From assembly GCA_958349075.1 (NCBI GenBank), contig CATWBR010000089.1:1-12352 (forward strand): a stretch of DNA of 12,352 nucleotides, read 5' to 3'. A program made the translations under genes and the position numbers. Shown here piece after piece: positions 3,066-12,352 of this stretch. Source of the DNA: an uncultured Clostridium sp. GTDB lineage: Bacteria; Bacillota; Clostridia; Lachnospirales; Lachnospiraceae. A model generated the notes under the pieces. It had not been told where the DNA came from, made no database searches, and worked only from the letters and a program-made list of their open reading frames with translations. Position 1 is the stretch's first letter. Each line of letters begins with the position of its first letter.

Positions 3066-3109
3066 AAAAAATGCCAGGCATACCCGGGATACCTCCCATC
3101 ATATGCCTG
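3066..3109 (-). terminator. Rho-independent terminator of the TRAP/dha operon
   Basis: On the minus strand the 8-bp stem CAGGCATA/TATGCCTG (3102-3109 with 3075-3082) encloses a 19-base loop that can form a further GGGA/TCCC pair. It is followed after three bases by six T residues (3066-3071). It lies about 70 bases beyond the dhaL stop and is the first terminator-like structure after the eight-gene operon. Confidence 0.6.
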
Positions 3110-3176
3110 ACACTTATAATCAACTGCTGTATGACCTGTCTCTTTCTATCCGCCTACATGTCTGAGAGATTCAGAG

Positions 3177-3815
3177 TCACCTTTTTTCCATTAAATAGTC
3201 ACAGAGACAGCCAATCTGAAGGGACATTGTCACGGCTCCCGGATCCAGATGGCCGACACCTCTTGAGAGCATGTAACTGGCCCGGCCTTTTCTGGCCTCC
3301 ATCTGTCTCGTACTCTCCGCCCCCTCTTCAGCCGCTGTTTTGACCCGTTCCAGCACGGTCCGGTCATCCTCCCCCGCCTCCAGGGCAAGCCTGAATGTTT
3401 CCGCAGCCGGGTACAGTGAATCGATCATTGTCTTAAATCCGGGTTCTGCTTTTCCGCGGCTCATCATGTCCTCCACCATGCCTGCGAGAACCAAACGGAG
3501 TCCTTCCATGTCCAGCGTTTCCCTTCCTGCCACGGCTCTGGCAGCCGCCATGTAGGCTCCTCCGTAAAGGATGCCGGAACTTCCTCCGATTCTGCTCATC
3601 ATAAGCATGCCGATCCGTTTCAGTGTCTCGCAGACCGGAAGTGTCATAAGCTCTTCCCCGGCTTCCGTCAGCGCCTCAAACCCCATATTAAGGTTCACCC
3701 AGTGATCTCCATCCCCGGTCGCCGCGTCCAGTTCCGTGATGTAATCCCTGCTTTCGCTTATCTTTGCTGCCGCCCGGTTCAGGTAAGCCACATAATCCTG
3801 CGATGTTATAATCAT
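3177..3815 (-). CDS. dhaL: Dihydroxyacetone kinase subunit DhaL-like
   Basis: A 212-residue DAK2/DhaL protein, the nucleotide-binding subunit that transfers phosphate to a hydroxy-ketone held by DhaK. The Mg-nucleotide loop aspartates fall at Asp30, Asp35 and Asp37 (ELDAATGDGDHW), the same numbering as E. coli DhaL. The phosphate-contacting GGSSG (77-81) and the late ARKGRAS and DPGA (191-194) motifs are present. One oddity: the residue after GDGDH, usually Gly in DhaL, is Trp39, and the usual N-M is NLNM. Length is normal. Start chosen with GGGAGG eight bases upstream, 17 bases after dhaK. It is the last gene of the operon, just before the terminator. No dhaM lies in the operon, so the phosphoryl donor is either an unlinked PTS DhaM or a nucleotide. 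Subunit identity is firm; the physiological substrate is open. Confidence 0.9.
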   Translation of the reverse strand: MIITSQDYVAYLNRAAAKISESRDYITELDAATGDGDHWVNLNMGFEALTEAGEELMTLPVCETLKRIGMLMMSRIGGSSGILYGGAYMAAARAVAGRETLDMEGLRLVLAGMVEDMMSRGKAEPGFKTMIDSLYPAAETFRLALEAGEDDRTVLERVKTAAEEGAESTRQMEARKGRASYMLSRGVGHLDPGAVTMSLQIGCLCDYLMEKR

Positions 3816-3832
3816 TCACCAGTCCTCCCGCT

Positions 3833-4822
3833 TCAGTATTTGAAAGCCGGTGTATCGGCCGGCGCTTCCAGTAATTCCTTCAGTTCCTCGTCCAGCCTTA
3901 AAAGTGTGACCGAACAGCCCGCCATCTCCAGGGAAGTCATATAATTCCCCACGATGGTGCGGACCACTTTGATTCCTCTTTCTTTAAGAAGTTCCGACAA
4001 TTCGTGGTTCATAATGTACAGTTCCATCAGGGGCGTTCCTCCCAGGCCGTTCACCAGCATGGCGGTTTCACTTCCGGCAAAACTATAATCCTCCAGAATA
4101 CGGTCCAGCAGCTTTTTCGCTGTTTCCGCGGCCGATGTAAGCTCCTCCCGGCAAATCCCCGGTTCACCGTGTATTCCCATGCCGATTTCCACCTCTGTCT
4201 CGCCCAGGACAAAACCCGGTTTCCCAACTCCCGGCAGAATGCACGGAGATATGGCCATTCCCATTGACCGTAGTCCGCCGATTACCTTTTCGGCAATGCG
4301 CTTCACCTCGTTAAGCGTTTTTCCCGACTCTGCGGCCGCTCCGGCAATCTTATGTACCAGCACGGTACCGGCAATTCCTCTTCGGCCTGCGGAATAAGTG
4401 CTGTCCGGAACTGCGACGTCGTCCTTTACCACCACGCTTTCCACCCGGATTCCTTCCATCTGTGCAAGCTCTGCCGCCAGCTCGAAATTCATGATATCAC
4501 CCGAATAATTTTTGATAATCAAAAGGACTCCGGCTCCCGCGTCCGCCGCCCGGATTCCAGAAAGTATCCGATCCGGGCTGGGTGATGCAAACACATTGCC
4601 TGCCACTGCCGCATCCAGCATTCCTTTGCCCACATATCCGGCATGAGCCGGTTCATGGCCGCTGCCGCCTCCGCTGACCAGTCCGACCTTGCCGGGCGTT
4701 TTTTCTCTCCGGCTTATCACTTCAATGCCTTCCCCCGCATAGACGAGACCAGGCTCCGCGGCCGCAAGCCCCTGCAGCATTTCCGTAACTACCCTGTTAG
4801 GATTGTTAATCAACTTTTTCAT
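3833..4822 (-). CDS. dhaK: Dihydroxyacetone kinase subunit DhaK-like
   Basis: A 329-residue DAK1/DhaK protein, the subunit that covalently holds a short hydroxy-ketone as a hemiaminal for phosphorylation by DhaL. Counting from MKKLINNPN, the key residues match E. coli numbering: His56 in GGGSGHEP, the catalytic base Asp109 in NYSGD, and the substrate-anchoring His218 in GIHGEPG. Alternative Met codons upstream would add up to 13 residues, but MKKLINNPN is the conserved DhaK N-terminus. This start overlaps the end of the CyuA-like gene by 17 bases, has only a weak G-rich ribosome site, and is probably translationally coupled. Separate K and L genes are typical of the PTS-dependent type, yet the DhaM subunit is absent from the operon. 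With intact catalytic residues the enzyme should be active; dihydroxyacetone, a tetrulose or another small hydroxy-carbonyl are all possible substrates. Confidence 0.92.
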   Translation of the reverse strand: MKKLINNPNRVVTEMLQGLAAAEPGLVYAGEGIEVISRREKTPGKVGLVSGGGSGHEPAHAGYVGKGMLDAAVAGNVFASPSPDRILSGIRAADAGAGVLLIIKNYSGDIMNFELAAELAQMEGIRVESVVVKDDVAVPDSTYSAGRRGIAGTVLVHKIAGAAAESGKTLNEVKRIAEKVIGGLRSMGMAISPCILPGVGKPGFVLGETEVEIGMGIHGEPGICREELTSAAETAKKLLDRILEDYSFAGSETAMLVNGLGGTPLMELYIMNHELSELLKERGIKVVRTIVGNYMTSLEMAGCSVTLLRLDEELKELLEAPADTPAFKY

Positions 4823-6161
4823 CTTTTGCAGCACCCCCATTCTTTTTCTGCATAATCTCAAGAATCACCTGCTCCGTCCCGGTCATACCCGGGGATGCTA
4901 TAAGGCCTATATTCCGCATCGTTCCCTCAGGAGTCACATCCGCCACGCCGTGTTCCGGCGAAACAGAGCCTCCGCTTAACGCCAGCTCCATGGAAGTCAC
5001 GGCCGTATCCACCGCCGCCAGTACCTTCATACAACAGGCATGGTTTCCCCCGGTGCAGATCATACCGACAATGGATGCCGCCATATTGTTTAGGGTATCC
5101 ACGATCTGTTCAAAGCTGCCTCCCCGCATGAATGTCATAGCGCAGGCCGTCCCCGTTCCGGCCGCAATGCCGCACCCGCAGAATGCAGACAATTTTCCGG
5201 AATACTCCTTCATATACATTGTGACAAGATAGCTCAATGCGGTGGCCCGGAGCAGAAGTTCTTCCGGCTGTCCTTCCACTCTGTACATTGCATATAGGGG
5301 CATGGTGCAAATAATCCCGTGGTTTCCGCTGCCCGTAATACTCATCGCCGGCTTATTAAGGCCCAGGACCCGCGCCTCCGAAGCCGCGCCCGCAAAGAAG
5401 CGGGCAGTTGCCCTTAAGTTATCCGACACCTCTTTTCCCCCGTTAAATGCAAACAGGCTCTTTGTCAGGGTACATGCCCGGGAACATAGCGCCTCTTTTG
5501 CAAGTTCCGTGTTTACCCTGTATGCCTCCCTGATAAAATAGAGCTCCTCCGCCGGAACTTCCCTGGCAAACAGGAAAAAATCCCTCATTGTGCAGCCGGT
5601 GATGGGATTACGGCCTGCAATCGGGGCACGGCCGCTATCCAGATTACAGCCCGGACCCGGGCCGCATGGCTCCGCCTCGTCTGTCTTCTCTTTTTTATTA
5701 AGGACTATCTGCCCATTTTTCACCAGCCGGCAGATATTGGTGTGACTGCCCCGGATCTCCGCCTCACAGCAGTCATGCTCTGTCTTTATACAGGCATGAA
5801 TATACAGCTCGGAGCTGATTGAAGAAACCTCCACCTTCACGCGCCCTTCATTTATAAAACGCCGGGCCTCTTCCACCTTGGCGCCGGATATCCCCTCCAG
5901 AACTAAAAGGCCTTTTTCCTTGTCACCGGCCACGCATCCCAAAGCGGCGGCATATAAGTTTCCGATTTTATCCGTGCCCGGAATCCCGCATGTAAACGCA
6001 TTTTTATAAATACCGGAGTTTTCCATAACCAGCAGACTTTCCACCGGTTCTTCCGTCATCGCCCTTGCAGACGCACAGGCCAGGGCAATGGCGGCTGGTT
6101 CCGTCACCCCGAGAGCCGGTTTCATATCCTTTTGAATCAGTTCCAGCAACATTTTTTTCAT
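4806..6161 (-). CDS. CyuA/UPF0597-type Fe-S lyase (cysteine desulfidase or serine dehydratase alpha-like)
   Basis: A 451-residue homologue of the L-cysteine desulfidase/serine-dehydratase-alpha family (CyuA, E. coli YhaM). Known members use a [4Fe-4S] cluster to convert L-cysteine to pyruvate, ammonia and sulfide. The family start (KPALGVTEPAAIALA), GSGNHGI (277-283), CGCGIAAGTG (from 328) and MIC...CC (Cys369, Cys376, Cys377) are visible, so cluster-ligand cysteines appear present. Two features are unusual. The segment normally reading ICDGAKxGC is ICTGGNHACC, and a Cys/Pro/Gly-rich stretch at about 160-190 looks like an insertion. Start has GGAGG upstream. It sits between the ATC-hydrolase-like genes and dhaK, overlapping dhaK. 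This suggests an elimination/deamination step in a catabolic route, perhaps on an amino acid other than cysteine. The family call is firm; the substrate is not. Confidence 0.82.
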   Translation of the reverse strand: MKKMLLELIQKDMKPALGVTEPAAIALACASARAMTEEPVESLLVMENSGIYKNAFTCGIPGTDKIGNLYAAALGCVAGDKEKGLLVLEGISGAKVEEARRFINEGRVKVEVSSISSELYIHACIKTEHDCCEAEIRGSHTNICRLVKNGQIVLNKKEKTDEAEPCGPGPGCNLDSGRAPIAGRNPITGCTMRDFFLFAREVPAEELYFIREAYRVNTELAKEALCSRACTLTKSLFAFNGGKEVSDNLRATARFFAGAASEARVLGLNKPAMSITGSGNHGIICTMPLYAMYRVEGQPEELLLRATALSYLVTMYMKEYSGKLSAFCGCGIAAGTGTACAMTFMRGGSFEQIVDTLNNMAASIVGMICTGGNHACCMKVLAAVDTAVTSMELALSGGSVSPEHGVADVTPEGTMRNIGLIASPGMTGTEQVILEIMQKKNGGAAKDEKVD

Positions 6162-6216
6162 TTTTGCCGCTCCTCCATGGATTTATCGGTTCCTGCTTTT
6201 ACTATTTTTCCTGTTC

Positions 6217-6711
6217 TCAGCGGACCTTCTCCTTTTTAAAACACATTGTACACTTTCCGCAGCCCGATGCTATCGTTGCCTTTAAATCCATCGACATCCC
6301 CAGGCTCTCGGCCGTGCCGCGGTCCATCTCCATACAGATATCACAGATGTCGGCCAGGAATTTTTCATCCTGTTCCAGGCTCTGCCAGGCATTAACCAGC
6401 GGACAGTAACCCAGTTCCACCTCAAATTCCTCTTCCGTCAGCTTTACGATCTCACCCTCGTTAACCTTCTCCACTCCATAGGTCATAAACTCGTTTGCAA
6501 AATCCTTTAGATTATCAATTCCGGCAAACCTGTTCCTGCCCAGAAATACCCCGGCTTCATGCATGGCATCCCGTGCAAATTCCAGGGGAAGTCCCTGTTC
6601 CAGCCCCTCCTTTACCAGAAAATAATACCATCTTCCGCGGTTTTCATAGGCGTCACGCACCGCATCCACATTGTAATCACCCACATATTTTTTCGGCACA
6701 TTCTCAATCAT
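6217..6711 (-). CDS. L-2-amino-thiazoline-4-carboxylate hydrolase-family protein (second copy)
   Basis: A 164-residue protein of the ATC hydrolase-like family, named after an enzyme that opens the ring of L-2-amino-thiazoline-4-carboxylate on the way to cysteine. Recognisable features are GRWYYFLVKEG near residue 26, GYCPLVNAW (Cys103), DICDICMEMDRG (Cys123, Cys126) and a C-terminal CGKCTMC (Cys151, 154, 157). The last forms a CxxCxxC cluster that its neighbour lacks and that suggests metal or Fe-S binding. It has no signal peptide and should be cytosolic. It follows its paralogue by 12 bases and precedes the CyuA-like gene by 55. AAGGGGG seven bases before the start supports the start codon. 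Two adjacent divergent copies suggest a heteromeric enzyme or two successive steps. Assignment is from motif memory; many family members have no tested activity. Confidence 0.75.
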   Translation of the reverse strand: MIENVPKKYVGDYNVDAVRDAYENRGRWYYFLVKEGLEQGLPLEFARDAMHEAGVFLGRNRFAGIDNLKDFANEFMTYGVEKVNEGEIVKLTEEEFEVELGYCPLVNAWQSLEQDEKFLADICDICMEMDRGTAESLGMSMDLKATIASGCGKCTMCFKKEKVR

Positions 6712-6723
6712 CTTACTTCCCCC

Positions 6724-7206
6724 TTACTTTTTTACAAAATGCAGTTCACAGACGTTGTCTCCCGTTCCAATCGCACGCTCCAGTTTAAAGCCGATGTGGT
6801 CGTATAAGTCAAATACGCCCCGGTCCACGTCCATCGCACAGTCACAGATTAAAGCGATTTCCTTTTCATCCGCGGTAAGCTTTGTCCAGGCTCCGCACAT
6901 CGGACAATAATGGAAATGCACAACAGCCTCCTCATCCGTCAGGGAAACCAGCTCCGCATGGAACTGTTTTATCGTCTGATCGTTCATGAACGCACCCATG
7001 AACTGGGAAAGGCTGTCCGTATCAGGGTAATTTTTGCGGTAGAGATTACCCAATTTGCGGATTGCACCGCGGGCATAGGCCTCTTCGTCCAGTCCATACC
7101 GGCCGGCCGCCTTTACCATCTGGTAATACCACATACCTCTGGTCTCGTTCGCCTTCCTGATCTCCTTTGACAACGTGTCATTGATTTTTGCATTGTTTTT
7201 AATCAT
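6724..7206 (-). CDS. L-2-amino-thiazoline-4-carboxylate hydrolase-family protein (first copy)
   Basis: A 160-residue paralogue of the next gene, transcribed first. Shared landmarks: ETRGMWYYQMVK near residue 21, FHYCPMCGAWTKL (Cys101, Cys104), LICDCAMDVDRG (Cys121, Cys123) and a C-terminal GDNVCELHF (Cys143, His146). Here the CP motif is extended to CPMC while the C-terminal CxxCxxC of the sister is reduced to a CxxH. The aligned invariant positions between the two are the CP cysteine, the CD cysteine, DRG and the C-terminal cysteine. These are good candidates for catalytic or metal-binding residues. Start has GGAGG upstream, 24 bases after dctM. It is probably cytosolic and cotranscribed with the TRAP genes, so it may act on the imported compound. 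A hydrolase of a cyclic or amide-like amino-acid derivative is the natural guess, but nothing in the sequence proves the substrate. Confidence 0.76.
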   Translation of the reverse strand: MIKNNAKINDTLSKEIRKANETRGMWYYQMVKAAGRYGLDEEAYARGAIRKLGNLYRKNYPDTDSLSQFMGAFMNDQTIKQFHAELVSLTDEEAVVHFHYCPMCGAWTKLTADEKEIALICDCAMDVDRGVFDLYDHIGFKLERAIGTGDNVCELHFVKK

Positions 7207-7230
7207 CTCAAACCTCCGTTCTATTTTATG

Positions 7231-8514
7231 TTAACCTGTATAGCCCAACAGGCGGGGGATTGTAAGTACCAGATCCGGACAGTAGGTACATATTAAAAGA
7301 CACACTACCAGAACACCGATCCACGGCCAGATTCCTTTTACCATCCGGTCCACCGGTACCTTGGTAGCCATTGCCGTGGTGTATAAACAGGTTCCGACCG
7401 GCGGTGTCAGGACGCCAATCGTCAGGTTGAAACACATCAGCAGACCAAAGTGGACAAAATCATATCCGTATGCCTGCATAATCGGCAGGAAGACGGGTAC
7501 CAGAATCAGAACCGCCGGGGATGCATCCATAAACATTCCGACCAGCAGCAGGAATACCTGGATAATAAGCAGAGCAATCATTCCGTTGTCCGTCAGGGAA
7601 AGCATAAAGTTACATATAATCGTAGGAATCTGCTCTATTGCCAGAGCCCATCCCATTACGCCCGCCATTGCCGCAATTATCAAAATAGCGCCGCTCATCA
7701 CAGCCGACCTGATAATCATCGGGATTAGGGCTTTTAACTTGATTTTTTTATAGACAAAGATTCCTACCAGCGTCACCACCATGATAATCAGCGATGCCGA
7801 TTCGGTTGCCGTCGCAACTCCGGCCGCAATACTGACAAAAGTTAAAAATGGGGCAATAATGGAAAACGCGGCCGACTTCAGCTTATTCCACACATGTCTC
7901 CATCCCTGCCAGTCATGGATTACCCATTTGCGGTTCGGGTTCCGGGACAGAATAAAGATTACCAGAGCCAGGGCCAGCCCCACCATAATGCCGGGCACCA
8001 CACCGGCCTCAAACAGATAAGCGATCGGAGTGCCGCTGGATACACCGTAAATTACATACAGCAGACCCGGAGGAATTAAGGGGCCCACCACCGATACGGA
8101 GGCAATAAAACAGGCTGCAAAATCCTCCTCGTATCCGTCTTTGCGCATTTCCGGATAGATGGTCGAGGAAAGCAGAGCCGCTTCCGCATTGGCCATACCC
8201 AGAATCCCGCCCAAAAGAAGTCCTACAATCGTACAGACATAGGCAATACCGCCCTTCACCCTGCCGACCAGCGCCCGGCAGAAATCCATCAGCCTCGTCA
8301 CATCCCCCGAAAGCCCCATCAGCTCACCGGCCAGGATAAACATCGGAATTGCCATCAGATTATAGGAATTAGCCGAAGAAAACAATTTCTGCGCTACCGC
8401 AGGAAAATAGTTCGGTCCCATGGTAATCAGCCCGGCCGCGCCGACCAGTCCCAGCACATATGCAATCGGAACTCCCAGCAGCAGGGTGACTACAAACATA
8501 ATTATCATTATCAT
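7231..8514 (-). CDS. dctM: TRAP transporter large membrane subunit (DctM)
   Basis: A 427-residue polytopic membrane protein, the large subunit of a tripartite ATP-independent periplasmic transporter. It couples sodium-driven uptake to delivery by the DctP binding protein. Features are the N-terminal GVPIAYVLGLVGAAGL helix, MAIPMFILAGELMGLSG, GGILGMANAEAA, GPLIPPGLLYVIYG and the late LTPPVGTCLYTTAM, all standard DctM landmarks; roughly a dozen hydrophobic helices span the length. I start at 8514, where AGGAG lies seven bases upstream and the protein begins directly with its first helix. An upstream Met would add 20 charged residues not seen in the family. It follows dctQ by 71 bases and precedes the ATC-hydrolase-like pair by 24. 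Length and motifs are normal; the family label is secure. Confidence 0.95.
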   Translation of the reverse strand: MIMIIMFVVTLLLGVPIAYVLGLVGAAGLITMGPNYFPAVAQKLFSSANSYNLMAIPMFILAGELMGLSGDVTRLMDFCRALVGRVKGGIAYVCTIVGLLLGGILGMANAEAALLSSTIYPEMRKDGYEEDFAACFIASVSVVGPLIPPGLLYVIYGVSSGTPIAYLFEAGVVPGIMVGLALALVIFILSRNPNRKWVIHDWQGWRHVWNKLKSAAFSIIAPFLTFVSIAAGVATATESASLIIMVVTLVGIFVYKKIKLKALIPMIIRSAVMSGAILIIAAMAGVMGWALAIEQIPTIICNFMLSLTDNGMIALLIIQVFLLLVGMFMDASPAVLILVPVFLPIMQAYGYDFVHFGLLMCFNLTIGVLTPPVGTCLYTTAMATKVPVDRMVKGIWPWIGVLVVCLLICTYCPDLVLTIPRLLGYTG

Positions 8515-8585
8515 ACCGTCACTCCTCTTCAGCCTCCCCCGTCCCTGTCCGGCCAGACACAGCCGCGCAGGCACAGGAGAAGATG

Positions 8586-9110
8586 CTAATCTAAACGTAC
8601 GTATTCATTTCCGTCACTTCTGGGAATAAAAATATGCAAAAATCCCAGCACTTCCGAAAAAAGCAGCAGCCACATTGTCACCGGGAGTATCCACCAGATA
8701 AGGCGCATCGGAATCTGCATGGCGGAACTGACCTGGTTTTGAATAATATTTGAAAAATACATTTTTGTCCCGTAAAATCCAATCCAACCGACTAAACCTG
8801 CAGAGAAAATCCGGGCAAGAATCCGGGCGGCTGTCTGAAAAGGCCCCTTAAACAGGGAAACAAATAGTTCGACTTTCGCCAGATGCCCCGTGTTGGATGC
8901 CACATAGGTTCCCAGAAACGTTACATACACAAGCAGAAAAGTGGCCATCTCATCACTCCATGCCAGAGGATGGTTCAGGAAATACCGCATCACTACGGAG
9001 ACAAAGATCAGGCAGACCTGGAGTGTCAGGACTGCACAAAGAAAATATTTGACTGCCCAAATCAGACGGTCATTAAAACGGTCCAGCATATAAATTACTT
9101 TTTTTGCCAT
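8586..9110 (-). CDS. dctQ: TRAP transporter small membrane subunit (DctQ)
   Basis: A 174-residue four-helix membrane protein, the small subunit that pairs with DctM. The family signature is clear: an initial helix with VMRYFLNHPLAWSDEMATFLLVY, then TFLGTYVASNTGHLAKVELF in the second region, followed by two further helices, the last ending near LGFLHIF. AAGGAG five bases before the start supports the start codon. The gene sits between dctP and dctM in the usual P-Q-M order. A hairpin-bearing 115-base gap separates it from dctP, so the binding protein may be made in excess over the membrane subunits. Confidence 0.93.
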   Translation of the reverse strand: MAKKVIYMLDRFNDRLIWAVKYFLCAVLTLQVCLIFVSVVMRYFLNHPLAWSDEMATFLLVYVTFLGTYVASNTGHLAKVELFVSLFKGPFQTAARILARIFSAGLVGWIGFYGTKMYFSNIIQNQVSSAMQIPMRLIWWILPVTMWLLLFSEVLGFLHIFIPRSDGNEYVRLD

Positions 9111-9152
9111 ACTATCTCCTTTTCAGTTACTGTTCACAGCCCCGTTAAAGAA

Positions 9153-9208
9153 CGCGGTTTTGAAAACAACGCGCTTCGCGGACAGGCGGGAGAAGCGCCG
9201 CCCTGTCC
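9153..9208 (-). promoter_or_regulatory. Hairpin cluster between dctP and dctQ
   Basis: The dctP-dctQ gap holds a GC-rich hairpin at 9180-9208 (GGACAGG-CGG against CCGCCCTGTCC, one bulge). An A/T stem with CGCG clamps follows at 9153-9173. On the minus strand these lie just after the dctP stop and no long T-run follows, so this looks more like an mRNA-stabilising or processing structure, or a leaky attenuator, than a full terminator. It would fit higher expression of the binding protein. Confidence 0.4.
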
Positions 9209-9225
9209 TATCGGCCTTCTCCTCC

Positions 9226-10335
9226 TTAATTCTGCGGGATTCCAAGGTCTTCGCGCACTTTCAGGACATATTCATAGATTGCTTTACTGTCCTCATTTTC
9301 ACAGTACTTGTCAATTACCGGCCGGCATGCCGCCACGGCCGCCTTGTGATCAATGACGGAGACCTTAAGACCCTTTTCCTCAAATGTGGCGTAGGCATTT
9401 TTCTGTGCTGTTTCGAAGGTATCATAGCAGGCCTGGCGTCCTTTCTCGACTGCCTCCGTTATCCAGCCTTTCTCCTCCTCCGACAGGCCGTCCCAGGTCA
9501 TTCCGCTGCACACAAACAGTGGGGAGGCTGTCGCATGGCCTGACTTTACCACATATTTTGCCGTCTCATATGTACCTGAAGTAATCGTAGAGCATGCCGT
9601 ATCTTCAAATCCGTCCACCACTCCCGTCTGCATGGCATTGTAGACCTCGCTGTAACCAAGCGGCGTTGCCACAAACCCCATGGCGGTATACATATCGAGA
9701 TGCATCTGCGCCGTCATTGACCGCAGCTTGATGCTCGGAGCATCGGCCAGGCTCTTCAGCTCTTTTTTCAGGAAGAAATCGCGGGACGCGTTATACAGGA
9801 AGCCAACCGGTTTAACGGAAGTCTCCGCATACACCTTATCCAGATAACCTTTCGCGAAATCCGAGCTGACCACAGTGTTTTGCAGCTCCGTATTTACTAC
9901 TCCGGTTTCATCCACCCACATATAAGGCAGGTCAAATGCCTCCAAAACATGTGTGAAATTGGATAAGGAGGCCGCATTGAATACCGCACAGTCAATCGTC
10001 CCCATCTGCATACTCTCAAATACGGAGACCTCATCCCCAAGCTGTCCGCCCGCATAAACATCAAGTTTCAGTTTTCCTCCGGAAGCCTCATCCAGATATG
10101 CGTTCATGGCAATCAACGCCTGTGTGTAGCCGTGTGTCTCATCCCAGGATGTCGGCATACTGGTTTTTAAAAGCTTTACATCACTGTTTTCCTTTTCACT
10201 CCCACCGCTTTCCGCCTGGTTCTCCGTCTTCGTTTCCGCAGCCGGTTCACTCTCCGCCTTATTCCCTTTTCCACAGCCAGCCAGTGAAGTAACAGCCAGC
10301 GCCCCGGCAACCGCTAATGCTACAAATTTTTTCAT
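9226..10335 (-). CDS. dctP: TRAP transporter substrate-binding lipoprotein (DctP)
   Basis: A 369-residue solute-binding protein of the DctP family, anchored to the membrane as a lipoprotein (MKKFVALAVA signal, lipobox LAGC, Cys21) with an acidic linker to about residue 50. The core has QLGDEVSVFESMQMGTIDC (98-116), a central IKLRSM whose Arg205 matches the arginine that usually binds a substrate carboxylate, then YSEVYNAMQTGVVDG (228-242). The stretch after VVDG reads FEDTAC, where many family members have Q/A-E-N-P, so the ligand may be unusual. Start at 10335 has AGGAGG seven bases upstream; an upstream Met would precede the signal peptide. It is the first gene of the operon, with a leader of about 149 bases. 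The ligand is probably a small carboxylic acid, identity unknown. Confidence 0.93.
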   Translation of the reverse strand: MKKFVALAVAGALAVTSLAGCGKGNKAESEPAAETKTENQAESGGSEKENSDVKLLKTSMPTSWDETHGYTQALIAMNAYLDEASGGKLKLDVYAGGQLGDEVSVFESMQMGTIDCAVFNAASLSNFTHVLEAFDLPYMWVDETGVVNTELQNTVVSSDFAKGYLDKVYAETSVKPVGFLYNASRDFFLKKELKSLADAPSIKLRSMTAQMHLDMYTAMGFVATPLGYSEVYNAMQTGVVDGFEDTACSTITSGTYETAKYVVKSGHATASPLFVCSGMTWDGLSEEEKGWITEAVEKGRQACYDTFETAQKNAYATFEEKGLKVSVIDHKAAVAACRPVIDKYCENEDSKAIYEYVLKVREDLGIPQN

Positions 10336-10428
10336 CTTTCTTCCTCCTCTTTTTATTTGAAACAGGCATCTTCTCGGCCCCATATCATAGATCCCCTTCA
10401 ATGGAGAATGCCGCCTCTTTTAAGTGAT

Positions 10429-10446
10429 ATGACGTATGATGTCATG
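10429..10446. promoter_or_regulatory. Second GntR operator candidate in the dctP leader
   Basis: TATGATGTCATG (10435-10446) matches the reverse complement of the promoter-spacer site at 10 or more positions, differing only at one base of twelve. It extends leftward into a 17-bp imperfect palindrome, ATGACGT-atg-ATGTCAT (10429-10445). It lies about +39 to +50 from the predicted dctP transcription start and its centre is 63 bp from the first site, about six helical turns. Confidence 0.55.
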
Positions 10447-10450
10447 GTAT

Positions 10451-10497
10451 AAAAAAAATTACACTGGAATCACGATCTTTTGTTAATTCCAGTGTAA
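10451..10497 (-). terminator. Rho-independent terminator of the gntR gene
   Basis: On the minus strand a perfect 12-bp stem, TTACACTGGAAT (10486-10497) with ATTCCAGTGTAA (10459-10470), encloses a 15-base loop. It is followed immediately by eight T residues (10451-10458). It lies about 50 bases past the gntR stop. Its 5' arm contains the -10 box of the downstream operon promoter, so transcripts started there begin in the loop and cannot form this hairpin. Confidence 0.85.
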
Positions 10498-10519
10498 CAT
10501 GACGTCATACCTCTGTCAA
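10491..10519 (-). promoter_or_regulatory. Main promoter of the TRAP/dha operon
   Basis: On the minus strand a perfect -35 TTGACA (10514-10519), a 17-base spacer and a -10 TACACT (10491-10496) form a strong sigma-A-type promoter. Predicted start is an A near 10484, about 149 bases before the dctP start codon. The spacer carries a 10-bp palindrome, so binding there should block RNA polymerase. Confidence 0.75.
10498..10509. promoter_or_regulatory. Primary GntR operator candidate inside the promoter spacer
   Basis: The perfect palindrome ATGACGTCAT (10499-10508), extended as TATGACGTCATG on the minus strand, sits between the -35 and -10 boxes. Its size and the adjacent FadR-type gene make that regulator the likely ligand, acting as a repressor released by the operon's substrate or an intermediate. 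The pairing of protein and site is inference. Confidence 0.6.
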
Positions 10520-10548
10520 TATCAAAATTTGCCCTTTTTTTCCTTTTC

Positions 10549-11271
10549 TCAGCACCGCTGTCCTGTCTTTTCTCTCATTGTTTTCATATGCTCCCTGCCT
10601 ATCTCCCTGGCCTTAACCGCATCACCGGCCTGAAGAGCATGAAATAAATCAATATGAAGATTCTGCGTGGCTGTTAGTTCGAAGGAACGGCGGTAAATGT
10701 TTGTTGTATAATTCAGGGCAATGGCCTTTTTAATCGTAGGCAGCATCCTCTCGATCACAATATTTCCCGTCATACGGTATACAAGCGAGTGGAATTCTAT
10801 CTCACTGTCCGCCAGACGGTCAATCATGCGGGGATTGCTCTCATCCATTTTAAGCTCATAAATTACGTCGTTCATCTTTCTGAGGATGACTTCCATCTCG
10901 CCAAGCTGTCTTTTTGTGGCCCGTTCGGCGGCCAGATAATACACTTCCGGCTCGATCACACTTCTCATTTCACAAAGATCCGGGATCAGCTTTTCCTCCG
11001 GTATGAATTCAAACCCATAGGGATCGTCCGCCAGCCCGGGAATCGCCGCCACATAGGTTCCCTTTCCACGCTCGATATAAAGAATATTCTTGGATATCAA
11101 TATCTTCACCGCTTCCCTGATCGTAGTGCGGCTCACATTTAAAGCATCCATTAACTCGTTCTCGTTGGGGAGTTTGGAACCCAATGCAAATTCGCCAGTC
11201 ATAATCTTTGCTTTTATCTTATCCGCAATATTTTGAGAAAGTGTAAAACCTCTGTCCATAATCTGTACCAT
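10549..11271 (-). CDS. GntR-family (FadR subfamily) transcriptional regulator
   Basis: A 240-residue regulator with an N-terminal winged helix (about 10-75: ADKIKAKIMTGEFALGSKLP, then NVSRTTIREAVKIL and the wing GKGTYVAA) and a C-terminal FCD ligand domain (about 98-235). The FCD metal/ligand residues are visible: Asp155 and His161 in DSEIEFH, His206/His211 in LHIDLFH and His228 in REHM, so it probably senses a carboxylate through a bound metal. It lies directly upstream of the TRAP operon on the same strand, but its own terminator separates the two, and palindromic sites flank the operon promoter. It is therefore the likely local repressor. The start is uncertain between 11271 and the Met four codons later; ribosome sites for both are weak. 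The gene has its own promoter at 11325-11354. Confidence 0.92.
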   Translation of the reverse strand: MVQIMDRGFTLSQNIADKIKAKIMTGEFALGSKLPNENELMDALNVSRTTIREAVKILISKNILYIERGKGTYVAAIPGLADDPYGFEFIPEEKLIPDLCEMRSVIEPEVYYLAAERATKRQLGEMEVILRKMNDVIYELKMDESNPRMIDRLADSEIEFHSLVYRMTGNIVIERMLPTIKKAIALNYTTNIYRRSFELTATQNLHIDLFHALQAGDAVKAREIGREHMKTMREKTGQRC

Positions 11272-11324
11272 CCTTTATTTCCCTGCAGGCTCCCCGGCCG
11301 TTTCAGCCGTGTCCTGTCCTATCT

Positions 11325-11354
11325 ATTATATATGCTGTCTCCGGCATTTGGCAA
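11325..11354 (-). promoter_or_regulatory. Promoter of the gntR gene
   Basis: On the minus strand -35 TTGCCA (11349-11354) and a perfect -10 TATAAT (11325-11330) are spaced by 18 bases, about 60 bases before the gntR start. No copy of the ATGACGTCAT-type operator is seen here, so autoregulation through that motif is not indicated. Confidence 0.65.
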
Positions 11355-11422
11355 TCACTTTTCCTGCAAGTGGCCTCCTTCTGTGGCAGGTTAGGAATAA
11401 ATGGGGATTTAGGTGAGCAGAT

Positions 11423-11757
11423 GAGGACGCCGCCGGCAGGCCAGGGGCCGGGGTGGTGAGATGTGTGTATGAGTCTTCAGTCCCGGTTTCAGGTTGTCGT
11501 GAGGGGGAATCCGGCAGAATGAATTACTCCGGGGACCGTTTGCACTTAGTGGAGTGCACAGCGGATGCTAAGCTCGATAAGACCTCGCTAAGCACCGGCG
11601 GACTCCCATGTCCCCTGCGCAATTGATTCTGCCTCCTTCCCCGGGAAACGGATCGACGGGACTGAAGACTCCGCGAAGGTTATCGCCCGGTCCCGGGACT
11701 GAAGACTCATCCAACCAACTCCACCCCCCGGACATTGGCCGTCCCGGCCGCGTCCTC
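11423..11757. ncRNA. Large self-complementary element, candidate structured RNA of unknown family
   Basis: The 335-bp segment folds back on itself in nested order. Closing stem GAGGACGC/GCGTCCTC (11423-11430 with 11750-11757) continues inward with broken GC-rich pairing. Next is a perfect 18-bp stem, 11469-11486 with 11693-11710. Then a 22-base arm pairs at 18 positions, 11504-11525 with 11621-11642, and GGGGAC/GTCCCC pairs 11531-11536 with 11610-11615. The apex holds a 6-bp hairpin (11541-11558) and a stem with one A-A mismatch (11566-11594). Strand is undecided: it could be a leader of treR (plus) or an independent RNA. No clear promoter or terminator was found on either strand. The rod with a bubble resembles 6S RNA in outline, but it is longer and I recognise no conserved sequence of 6S, SRP, tmRNA, RNase P or riboswitches. 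A palindromic DNA repeat is an alternative. The flanking DNA, 11355-11422, holds only a small CACTT/AAGTG hairpin. Confidence 0.45.
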
Positions 11758-11795
11758 CTTCCTCAATTAAATCCTAAGATTCGAGGTGAAGAAAA

Positions 11796-12352
11796 ATGCC
11801 AAAAGCAATATACGAAACAATTTATAAAGACCTGAAACAGAAAATAGAAACCGATGTTTTCGCTTATCAGGAACTTTTGCCTTCAGAAAACACGCTAATC
11901 CAAACCTATAACTGCTCCCGCAATACCCTGCGCCGGGCAGTCAGCCGTCTGGTGAATGACGGCTATGTACAGACTATGCAGGGAAAAGGAGTCCGCAATA
12001 TCTACCAGCCTGTCGCACAAACTGCATTTACCATCGGAGAAATTGAAAGCTTCCGGGAATCTGCGGCGCGGAACAACCACCGTCCCGTCACCAGGGTTCT
12101 TTTATTTACAGAGTTTGCGATTAACGGGAAGCAGGCCGGATATACTGGTTTTCCCGTTGGAACCGATATTTATTATATCCAGCGTCTGCATTATTTAGAT
12201 GATCTGCCGGTGATCCTGAACCATAATTACTTTTTAAAAGAAGCAGTCCCCGGCCTCACTAAAGAAATCGCGGAAAATTCCATTTACCATTACCTGGAGC
12301 AGACGCTGCACATGACAATCGTAAACAGCAAGCGGATTATGACTGTGGAAAA
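11796..12352 (+). CDS. treR: TreR-like GntR/HutC-family regulator, 3' truncated by window end
   Basis: The first 185 codons of a GntR-family regulator of the HutC type; no stop occurs before the window ends. The winged helix is clear (IYKDLKQKIETD, LPSENTL, NCSRNTLRRAVSRLVNDGYV, QGKG, to about residue 65). The sugar-binding UTRA domain begins near residue 85. The passage DLPVILNHNYFLKEAVPGL followed by TKEIAENSIYHYLEQTL closely resembles trehalose operon repressors, which bind trehalose-6-phosphate. The start has GAGGTG seven bases upstream. It is divergent from the other gntR gene; the 524-base gap between them holds the structured element. Full TreR proteins are about 235-240 residues, so roughly a quarter is missing here. 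Trehalose PTS or phosphotrehalase genes would be expected beyond the right edge. I see no TreR-type operator in the gap. Confidence 0.78.
   Translation, partial: MPKAIYETIYKDLKQKIETDVFAYQELLPSENTLIQTYNCSRNTLRRAVSRLVNDGYVQTMQGKGVRNIYQPVAQTAFTIGEIESFRESAARNNHRPVTRVLLFTEFAINGKQAGYTGFPVGTDIYYIQRLHYLDDLPVILNHNYFLKEAVPGLTKEIAENSIYHYLEQTLHMTIVNSKRIMTVE

Follow-up and report, generated by a model that had tools for sequence, protein, structure and literature searches.

What might a bacterium break down with an operon that joins a tripartite ATP-independent periplasmic (TRAP) importer, two small proteins resembling 2-aminothiazoline-4-carboxylate (ATC) hydrolase, a CyuA-like eliminase and a DhaK-DhaL kinase? 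The question is raised by a 12,352-nucleotide stretch of DNA from an uncultured Clostridium sp. (assembly GCA_958349075.1, contig CATWBR010000089.1), which we analysed whole and call the window. Eight of its genes, dctP, dctQ, dctM, ATC1, ATC2, the CyuA-like gene, dhaK and dhaL, run in one direction on the minus strand and span positions 3177 to 10335. The initial annotation of this DNA had proposed one catabolic pathway, with hydrolysis, elimination and phosphorylation following each other. We found that the gene set, its regulator and an operator-like site recur across phyla, which supports a dedicated operon; the linear order of steps is hypothetical. Our preferred reading, to which we give a probability of about one half, is that the operon forms a self-contained module for the catabolism of one carboxylate, which is imported and is composed of cysteine, or a cysteine-like amino acid, and a small hydroxy-carbonyl. 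Its substrate, product and enzyme activities are predicted from sequence; the enzymes belong to known families, and no paper with their combination turned up in the collection searched.

Gene content and recurrence of the operon

The coordinates and orientation of the eight genes were confirmed, and the family names proposed earlier agreed with Pfam and, for DhaK and DhaL, with NCBIfam. Pfam recovered a full TRAP transporter set: the solute-binding protein DctP (9226-10335; DctP, 184.9 bits), the small permease DctQ (8586-9110; DctQ, 80.3 bits) and the large permease DctM (7231-8514; DctM, 310.5 bits, with TIGR00786 above its cut-off). The closest solved chains to DctP are TRAP receptors, including sialic-acid ones, and are too distant for ligand specificity to be read from them. 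The short ATC-hydrolase-like protein ATC1 (6724-7206) and its paralogue ATC2 (6217-6711) scored 42.5 and 33.9 bits against PF14196, both above the curated cut-off of 28.1 bits. Next comes the CyuA-like [4Fe-4S]-type eliminase (4806-6161; Pfam SDH_alpha, 165.7 bits), with Val at the position of Cys23 in the desulfidase MmCyuA. The dihydroxyacetone-kinase-type substrate subunit DhaK (3833-4822; TIGR02363, 479.8 bits, cut-off 406.25; Pfam Dak1, 440.9 bits) has its most likely start at 4822 (ATG, MKKLINNP), inside the 3' end of the CyuA-like gene. The last gene encodes the nucleotide subunit DhaL with a GDGDHW motif (3177-3815; TIGR02365, 183.7 bits, cut-off 138.3; Pfam Dak2, 161 bits). The two kinase subunits are thereby named by NCBIfam equivalogs; no NCBIfam model was found for the CyuA-like, ATC1 or ATC2 proteins.

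A single contig scan with the CyuA-like protein returned three loci. The first (L001), from [Clostridium] symbiosum ATCC 14940, carries the entire operon at 77-98% identity. The second (L002), from a Spirochaetales metagenome-assembled genome (MAG), has dctPQM, ATC1, ATC2, the CyuA gene and the start of dhaK, inside which the contig stops. The third (L003), from a Planctomycetota MAG, has the order GntR, dctPQM, ATC1, ATC2, CyuA with no adjoining dhaK. A four-row CyuA profile run on genome samples added three more: two further Planctomycetota loci with ATC1, ATC2 and CyuA (L039 and L040, whose contigs measure 3.5 and 3.2 kb) and, in G1476, which is another species of the genus of C. symbiosum, a reshuffled locus (L053) reading dctPQM, ATC1, ATC2, DhaK, DhaL, CyuA, GntR, DhaK2, DhaL2. 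The co-occurrence that the initial annotation proposed to check was seen for the whole set in C. symbiosum and its congener, and as far as the start of dhaK in the Spirochaetales locus, but the Planctomycetota loci had no adjoining dhaK. Because it was found again in other phyla, the gene set is beyond chance.

Conservation within the C. symbiosum locus was uneven. The products of dctQ, dctM, ATC1, ATC2 and dhaK were 88-98% identical to those of the window and that of dhaL 80%; the CyuA-like protein reached just 77-79%, and the copy in the window has an insert near residues 163-188.

The operon is rare. At E levels chosen per sample, at which these counts hold, the CyuA profile matched 25 of 295 genomes sampled from the order (E 1e-90), 2 of 8 from the genus, 6 of 398 from the phylum, 5 of 392 Spirochaetota and 3 of 392 Planctomycetota. 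When 26 places in the order were checked, ATC genes lay within the 1.5-kb flanks only at C. symbiosum, and the other places fetched from the phylum and Spirochaetota samples were without ATC genes. Since so few profile places have ATC genes, Val-type CyuA is commoner than the operon.

Partners and features of the enzymes

We then asked what ATC-like genes travel with in the family, where PF14196 matched 40 of 120 genomes at E 1e-8. The 66 fetched places were sorted by length into a short class of 157-193 amino acids (17 genes at 16 loci) and a long class of 38 loci. Six reads that were short or broken were not sorted; five loci with such reads (L107, L142, L151, L152 and L158) were excluded from the count, and so was the seed row G001:C184. 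A CyuA gene lay within 10 kb of 9 of the 16 short loci and none of the 38 long ones (Fisher P 2e-6), a result that held under other cuts. With the five set-aside loci and L137 counted as short, the figures were 9 of 22 short and 0 of 37 long loci (P 4e-5).

Several architectures emerged among these loci; the names Liv, MalY-like, GlnQ-like and YfcC/AbgT-like are sequence readings unless a family match is given. Three loci (L073, L074 and L148) join a Liv-type ABC importer to a Cys-type CyuA, ATC, DhaK and DhaL. L143 and L195 are probably two contig ends of one more such cluster, with the CyuA type not visible on them. L071 has Liv, two ATC genes, a second DhaKL type and a Cys-type CyuA, and L127 has Liv, a Cys-type CyuA, a short-chain dehydrogenase (SDR) and the second DhaKL type. 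In the near-identical L069 and L070, Liv and ATC lie in one run with Rrf2, a pyridoxal-phosphate enzyme of Cys/Met metabolism and an aminotransferase-fold gene, the last two in place of CyuA; their stretches 4157-12126 and 4692-12681, respectively, are likely cysteine-derivative utilisation clusters. A hydantoinase/carbamoylase-family gene, ATC and CyuA lie together in C. symbiosum (L106) and in genome G1575 (L140). The remaining short ATC loci had no such partners or had peptide-transport-like neighbours (L126, L128 and L141).

Within these loci, clusters of Liv-type, ATC-like and CyuA genes with an SDR dehydrogenase occupy L125 6251-14146 and L127 9677-19995, the latter going on to the second DhaK-DhaL type. 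L106 513-4915 (G001:C37) holds in a row a Cys-type CyuA gene, a hydantoinase/carbamoylase-family M20 gene, an ATC-hydrolase gene and an aminotransferase-fold gene, an arrangement fitting a route from ATC through cysteine to pyruvate. The M20 proteins of L106 and L140 exceed the cut-offs of TIGR01879 and of an allantoate amidohydrolase subfamily; from their context, they may act on N-carbamoylcysteine. A candidate link between ATC-like and iron alcohol dehydrogenase genes (L066) was dropped; the longer L201 has what we judged to be an ethanolamine-type set downstream.

The CyuA-like protein aligned with the L-cysteine desulfidase 9fsl (E 1e-32), with aligned residues Val19, Glu21, Arg264, Cys328, Cys369 and Cys376. 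The three [4Fe-4S] cysteines of MmCyuA (Cys287, 329 and 336) are kept as Cys328, Cys369 and Cys376 and are invariant in four rows. The catalytic dyad Cys23/Glu25 is incomplete, with Glu21 kept and Val19 in place of Cys23, so we do not class the protein as a cysteine desulfidase. The portions of PMC12647591 consulted describe an inactive C23A variant of MmCyuA and mention natural Val and Ser variants at this position. Because Val replaces this essential Cys, the enzyme may act on something other than free cysteine. In a tree of 51 rows, a clade of 30, of which 29 have Val, was separate from a Cys-type clade of 21 (one gene, that of L009 and L106, is counted twice there). All seven ATC1-ATC2-linked CyuA rows have Val. 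TRAP-type operons draw their CyuA from the Val clade and Liv-type ATC clusters from the Cys-type clade; two branches in the same slot suggest related chemistry for both. At L041 (8321-10999), Val-type and Cys-type CyuA genes stand in tandem, with RidA 1.5 kb away, and the two types, coexisting in one genome, may differ in substrate.

ATC1 and ATC2 form sister clades of seven rows each (98/91 and 99/94) in one group of 14 (100/96), which therefore points to a duplication before the spread across phyla. The closest protein to the pair in the tree is the ATC of L148, one of the Liv-DhaKL clusters (89/89), and the ATC proteins of L106 and L140 branch far away; the placements of L130 (read beyond its stop) and L137 (whose gene entered twice) were not used. 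Close relatives of ATC2 are scarce in the protein collection: among 225 candidates, 41 had E up to 1e-8. A sequence search of the PDB with ATC2 gave just three weak rows (best E 0.019). The AlphaFold model of ATC2, with a predicted local distance difference test (pLDDT) score of 96.5, is similar to TRAPP Bet3 and to the sensor domains of DmpR, MopR and PoxR, at sequence identities of 8-18%. Cys103, Trp109, Cys123 and Cys154 are invariant in 39 sequences, those of L106 and L140 included. The sensor domain of MopR has a zinc site, and by analogy ATC1 and ATC2 may have a similar one.

DhaK matched the DhaK structure 3ct4 (E 1.3e-107) and DhaL the DhaL structure 2btd (E 6e-38). In a DhaK tree of 32 rows, built from matches with a locus (L181 and L205 are one gene), the ATC-linked proteins fell into two clades, making up 7 of 8 rows (with L195 taken to be linked) and 3 of 4. 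The one other member of the smaller clade (L209) lies less than 4 kb from a 3-oxo-tetronate kinase gene, which is consistent with keto substrates of three or four carbons. The window-type DhaL has GDGDHW, and the DhaL proteins of three DhaKLM sets have GDGDHG or GDSDHG. No DhaM match was found within the window; DhaM matches occur in L197, L198 and L145.

Control region and flanking genes

The regulator gene lies upstream of the operon (10549-11271, minus strand; Pfam GntR 75.9 bits, FCD 69.4 bits). Homologues adjoin the operon in C. symbiosum L001 (90% identity), L003 (47%) and L053 (47%), and all four proteins share the stretch VSRTTIREA; the sole GntR match in L002 is distant (26%). An operator-like site, GACATCATACGTCATA, with half-sites GAC...GTC, lies at 10428-10443 on the minus strand and also precedes dctP in L001, L003 and, inverted, L053. 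The common form GACATCATACGTC is found in the gntR-dctP interval of the window, L001 and L003 and upstream of dctP, inverted, in L053. When six draft genomes were searched with the 13-base pattern RACATCATACGTC, for which chance predicts 0.15-0.29 matches per genome, we found one occurrence in each of G001, G1476 and G003, every time before this dctP. The pattern was not found in the other three, G002, G948 and G974, in the last two of which the region upstream of dctP lies outside the contig.

The initial annotation had framed the operon between a strong promoter and a terminator. A promoter-like site, TTGACA-17-TACACT with TG preceding the second hexamer (10491-10519, minus strand; 10 of 12 consensus matches), sits between gntR and dctP, and both hexamers are identical in L001, with one change in the spacer. 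A motif scan and fold placed a terminator-like hairpin with a T run after dhaL (3066-3113 on the minus strand, approximate ends; stem 3087-3074), but its conservation was not seen in L001. Across the window the scan gave 25 promoters against 14.0 (s.d. 3.8) in shuffles and 12 terminators against 11.2, and so gives weak support.

An inverted repeat, TTACACTGGAAT/ATTCCAGTGTAA, with eight T after it (10451-10497, minus strand), overlaps the promoter's -10 box. Its arms in L001 differ at matching positions with pairing kept, and it could terminate the gntR transcript or act as an attenuator. Downstream of the operon, aldo/keto reductase and carboxymuconolactone-decarboxylase-like genes (1512-2901) are unmatched across the 16.6 kb of L001 and are therefore probably unrelated to it.

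A proposed branched route, its alternatives and known systems

In the reading that we prefer, DctPQM would import a carboxylate adduct, as its family suggests. The ATC1/ATC2 pair, for which we observed the fold model and three invariant cysteines, would open or hydrolyse it, with a putative metal and a predicted activity. The CyuA-like [4Fe-4S] enzyme would then act on the amino-acid half, eliminating its beta substituent and ammonia to give pyruvate or another 2-oxo acid, and DhaK-DhaL, judging by family, would phosphorylate the hydroxy-carbonyl half for glycolysis. The GntR/FCD protein would control the operon by binding GACATCATACGTC, a site that we observed together with its single occurrence in each of three genomes. 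The pathway would thus branch after ATC1/ATC2 and not form a line. Import, adduct cleavage, beta-elimination and phosphorylation would account for each part of the operon and for the modules common to its relatives. As candidate substrates we propose the thiazolidine-4-carboxylates that small hydroxy-carbonyls would form, or the thioether conjugates 1DC and 3GC. The initial annotation had remarked, correctly, that ATC-cysteine-pyruvate chemistry leaves DhaK-DhaL unexplained, and had offered a non-pyruvate CyuA product or a branch as the way out. Relatives favour the branch, because DhaKL recurs with ATC-like genes and Cys-type CyuA in Liv-type clusters.

A narrower proposal, speculative and rather unlikely as it stands, is that the operon breaks down triose-cysteine compounds, either dihydroxyacetone or glyceraldehyde thiazolidine-4-carboxylates or 1DC/3GC, with short PF14196 proteins as cysteine-adduct hydrolases that free both halves. 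In the portions of PMC13121033 consulted, the thioether conjugates 1DC and 3GC are described as forming in animal cells from cysteine and the triose phosphates dihydroxyacetone phosphate and glyceraldehyde 3-phosphate. On chemical grounds, a conjugate of this kind could cyclise through its amine. If the cysteine-adduct reading is true, gut bacteria dispose of cysteine-sugar adducts made by cells, a possible source of sulfide; if the triose-cysteine proposal is, they could regain both triose and the carbon of cysteine from adducts of host or Maillard type, with release of sulfide.

Several observations weigh against the adduct module. The three Planctomycetota loci have no dhaK within 0.65-0.85 kb after the CyuA-like gene (DhaK matches of G003 lie on other contigs), and L040 has no dctM match in the 172 bases preceding ATC1. 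The PF14196 scores of ATC1 and ATC2 exceed the cut-off only modestly, and Val stands in the CyuA-like enzyme at the position of the essential Cys of MmCyuA. Places with a Val-type CyuA but no ATC genes exist too (L041-L045 and L054-L058), and the long-class ATC loci were shorter on average than the short-class ones (14.8 versus 17.6 kb), leaving less room for CyuA. Most short ATC loci are without DhaKL. DhaK adjoins 4 of 8 places matched by a window-type ATC profile (P 1e-5 at an assumed 2% chance each), a figure obtained with a query derived from this very operon; it becomes 3 of 7 once the seed genome is excluded. Among the 120 genomes of the family, 3 of the 16 short ATC loci and 1 of the 38 long ones had DhaK/L nearby (P 0.07, not significant), the one being L145, a long ATC gene beside a DhaKLM set with DhaM. 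Because the query was biased and the less biased sample gave P 0.07, the recurrence of DhaKL across several architectures is a stronger argument than the bare counts.

One alternative keeps a single skeleton throughout: ATC1/ATC2 would hydrolyse it, the CyuA-like enzyme would deaminate or dehydrate it as a beta-substituted amino acid other than cysteine, and DhaKL would phosphorylate the product. The Val shared by every ATC1-ATC2-linked CyuA, inside an almost uniformly Val clade, points away from free cysteine. Some Val-type relatives (L042 and L054) adjoin genes read as other transporters or peptidases, and in the window dhaK comes directly after the CyuA-like gene. However, Liv-type clusters pair DhaKL with a Cys-type CyuA, whose known product is pyruvate, and L053 has dhaKL ahead of its CyuA-like gene, so gene order carries little. 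We regard this linear scheme as possible but unlikely.

The proteins named ATC1 and ATC2 belong to a family called after ATC hydrolase, and a hydantoinase/carbamoylase-family gene does stand beside ATC and CyuA in L106 and L140. Both facts suit the textbook route, which leads from ATC through N-carbamoylcysteine and cysteine to pyruvate; DhaKL would then share the transcript without taking part. Yet the M20 protein of L106 is unmatched in the window or the TRAP-type loci (among 36 loci it matches only L106 and L140), the ATC proteins of those two loci are remote from ATC1/ATC2, and DhaKL recurs in other clusters and in two DhaK clades; we consider the route improbable here. It is also improbable, in our judgement, that ATC1 and ATC2 are ligand-binding or carrier proteins of Bet3/MopR-like fold, with the CyuA-like enzyme and DhaKL doing all the chemistry. 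Against this stand the three cysteines and the tryptophan invariant in 39 sequences, among them the L106 and L140 proteins, whose neighbours suit catalysis there.

The operon offers a concrete and testable link among three enzyme families; in the collection and with the terms searched, we found no paper joining them. It also provides a functional lead for the short PF14196 proteins and the Val-type CyuA clade, which NCBIfam leaves unnamed here.

The operon resembles four known systems in part. By manual count, Glu25, Arg223, Asn239 and the three cluster cysteines of L-cysteine desulfidase CyuA, as given in the portions of PMC12647591 consulted, align with the operon enzyme, whereas the latter has Val for the catalytic Cys23 and belongs to a separate deep clade. 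The DhaK and DhaL families are shared with the DhaKLM system dependent on the phosphotransferase system (PTS), but the operon is without the phosphoryl donor DhaM, its DhaL has GDGDHW and not GDGDHG or GDSDHG, and its DhaK falls in a separate clade. The sensor domains of DmpR, MopR and PoxR and TRAPP Bet3 may share the fold of the ATC2 model, whereas ATC1 and ATC2 are small stand-alone proteins of a catabolic operon, with low identity to them. In the ATC to cysteine pathway of Pseudomonas, the steps are carried out by AtcB and AtcC; as there, a PF14196 protein is thought to act on a cysteine-derived ring before cysteine breakdown, but the operon is without a carbamoylase-family gene and has two PF14196 paralogues, a TRAP importer and DhaKL.

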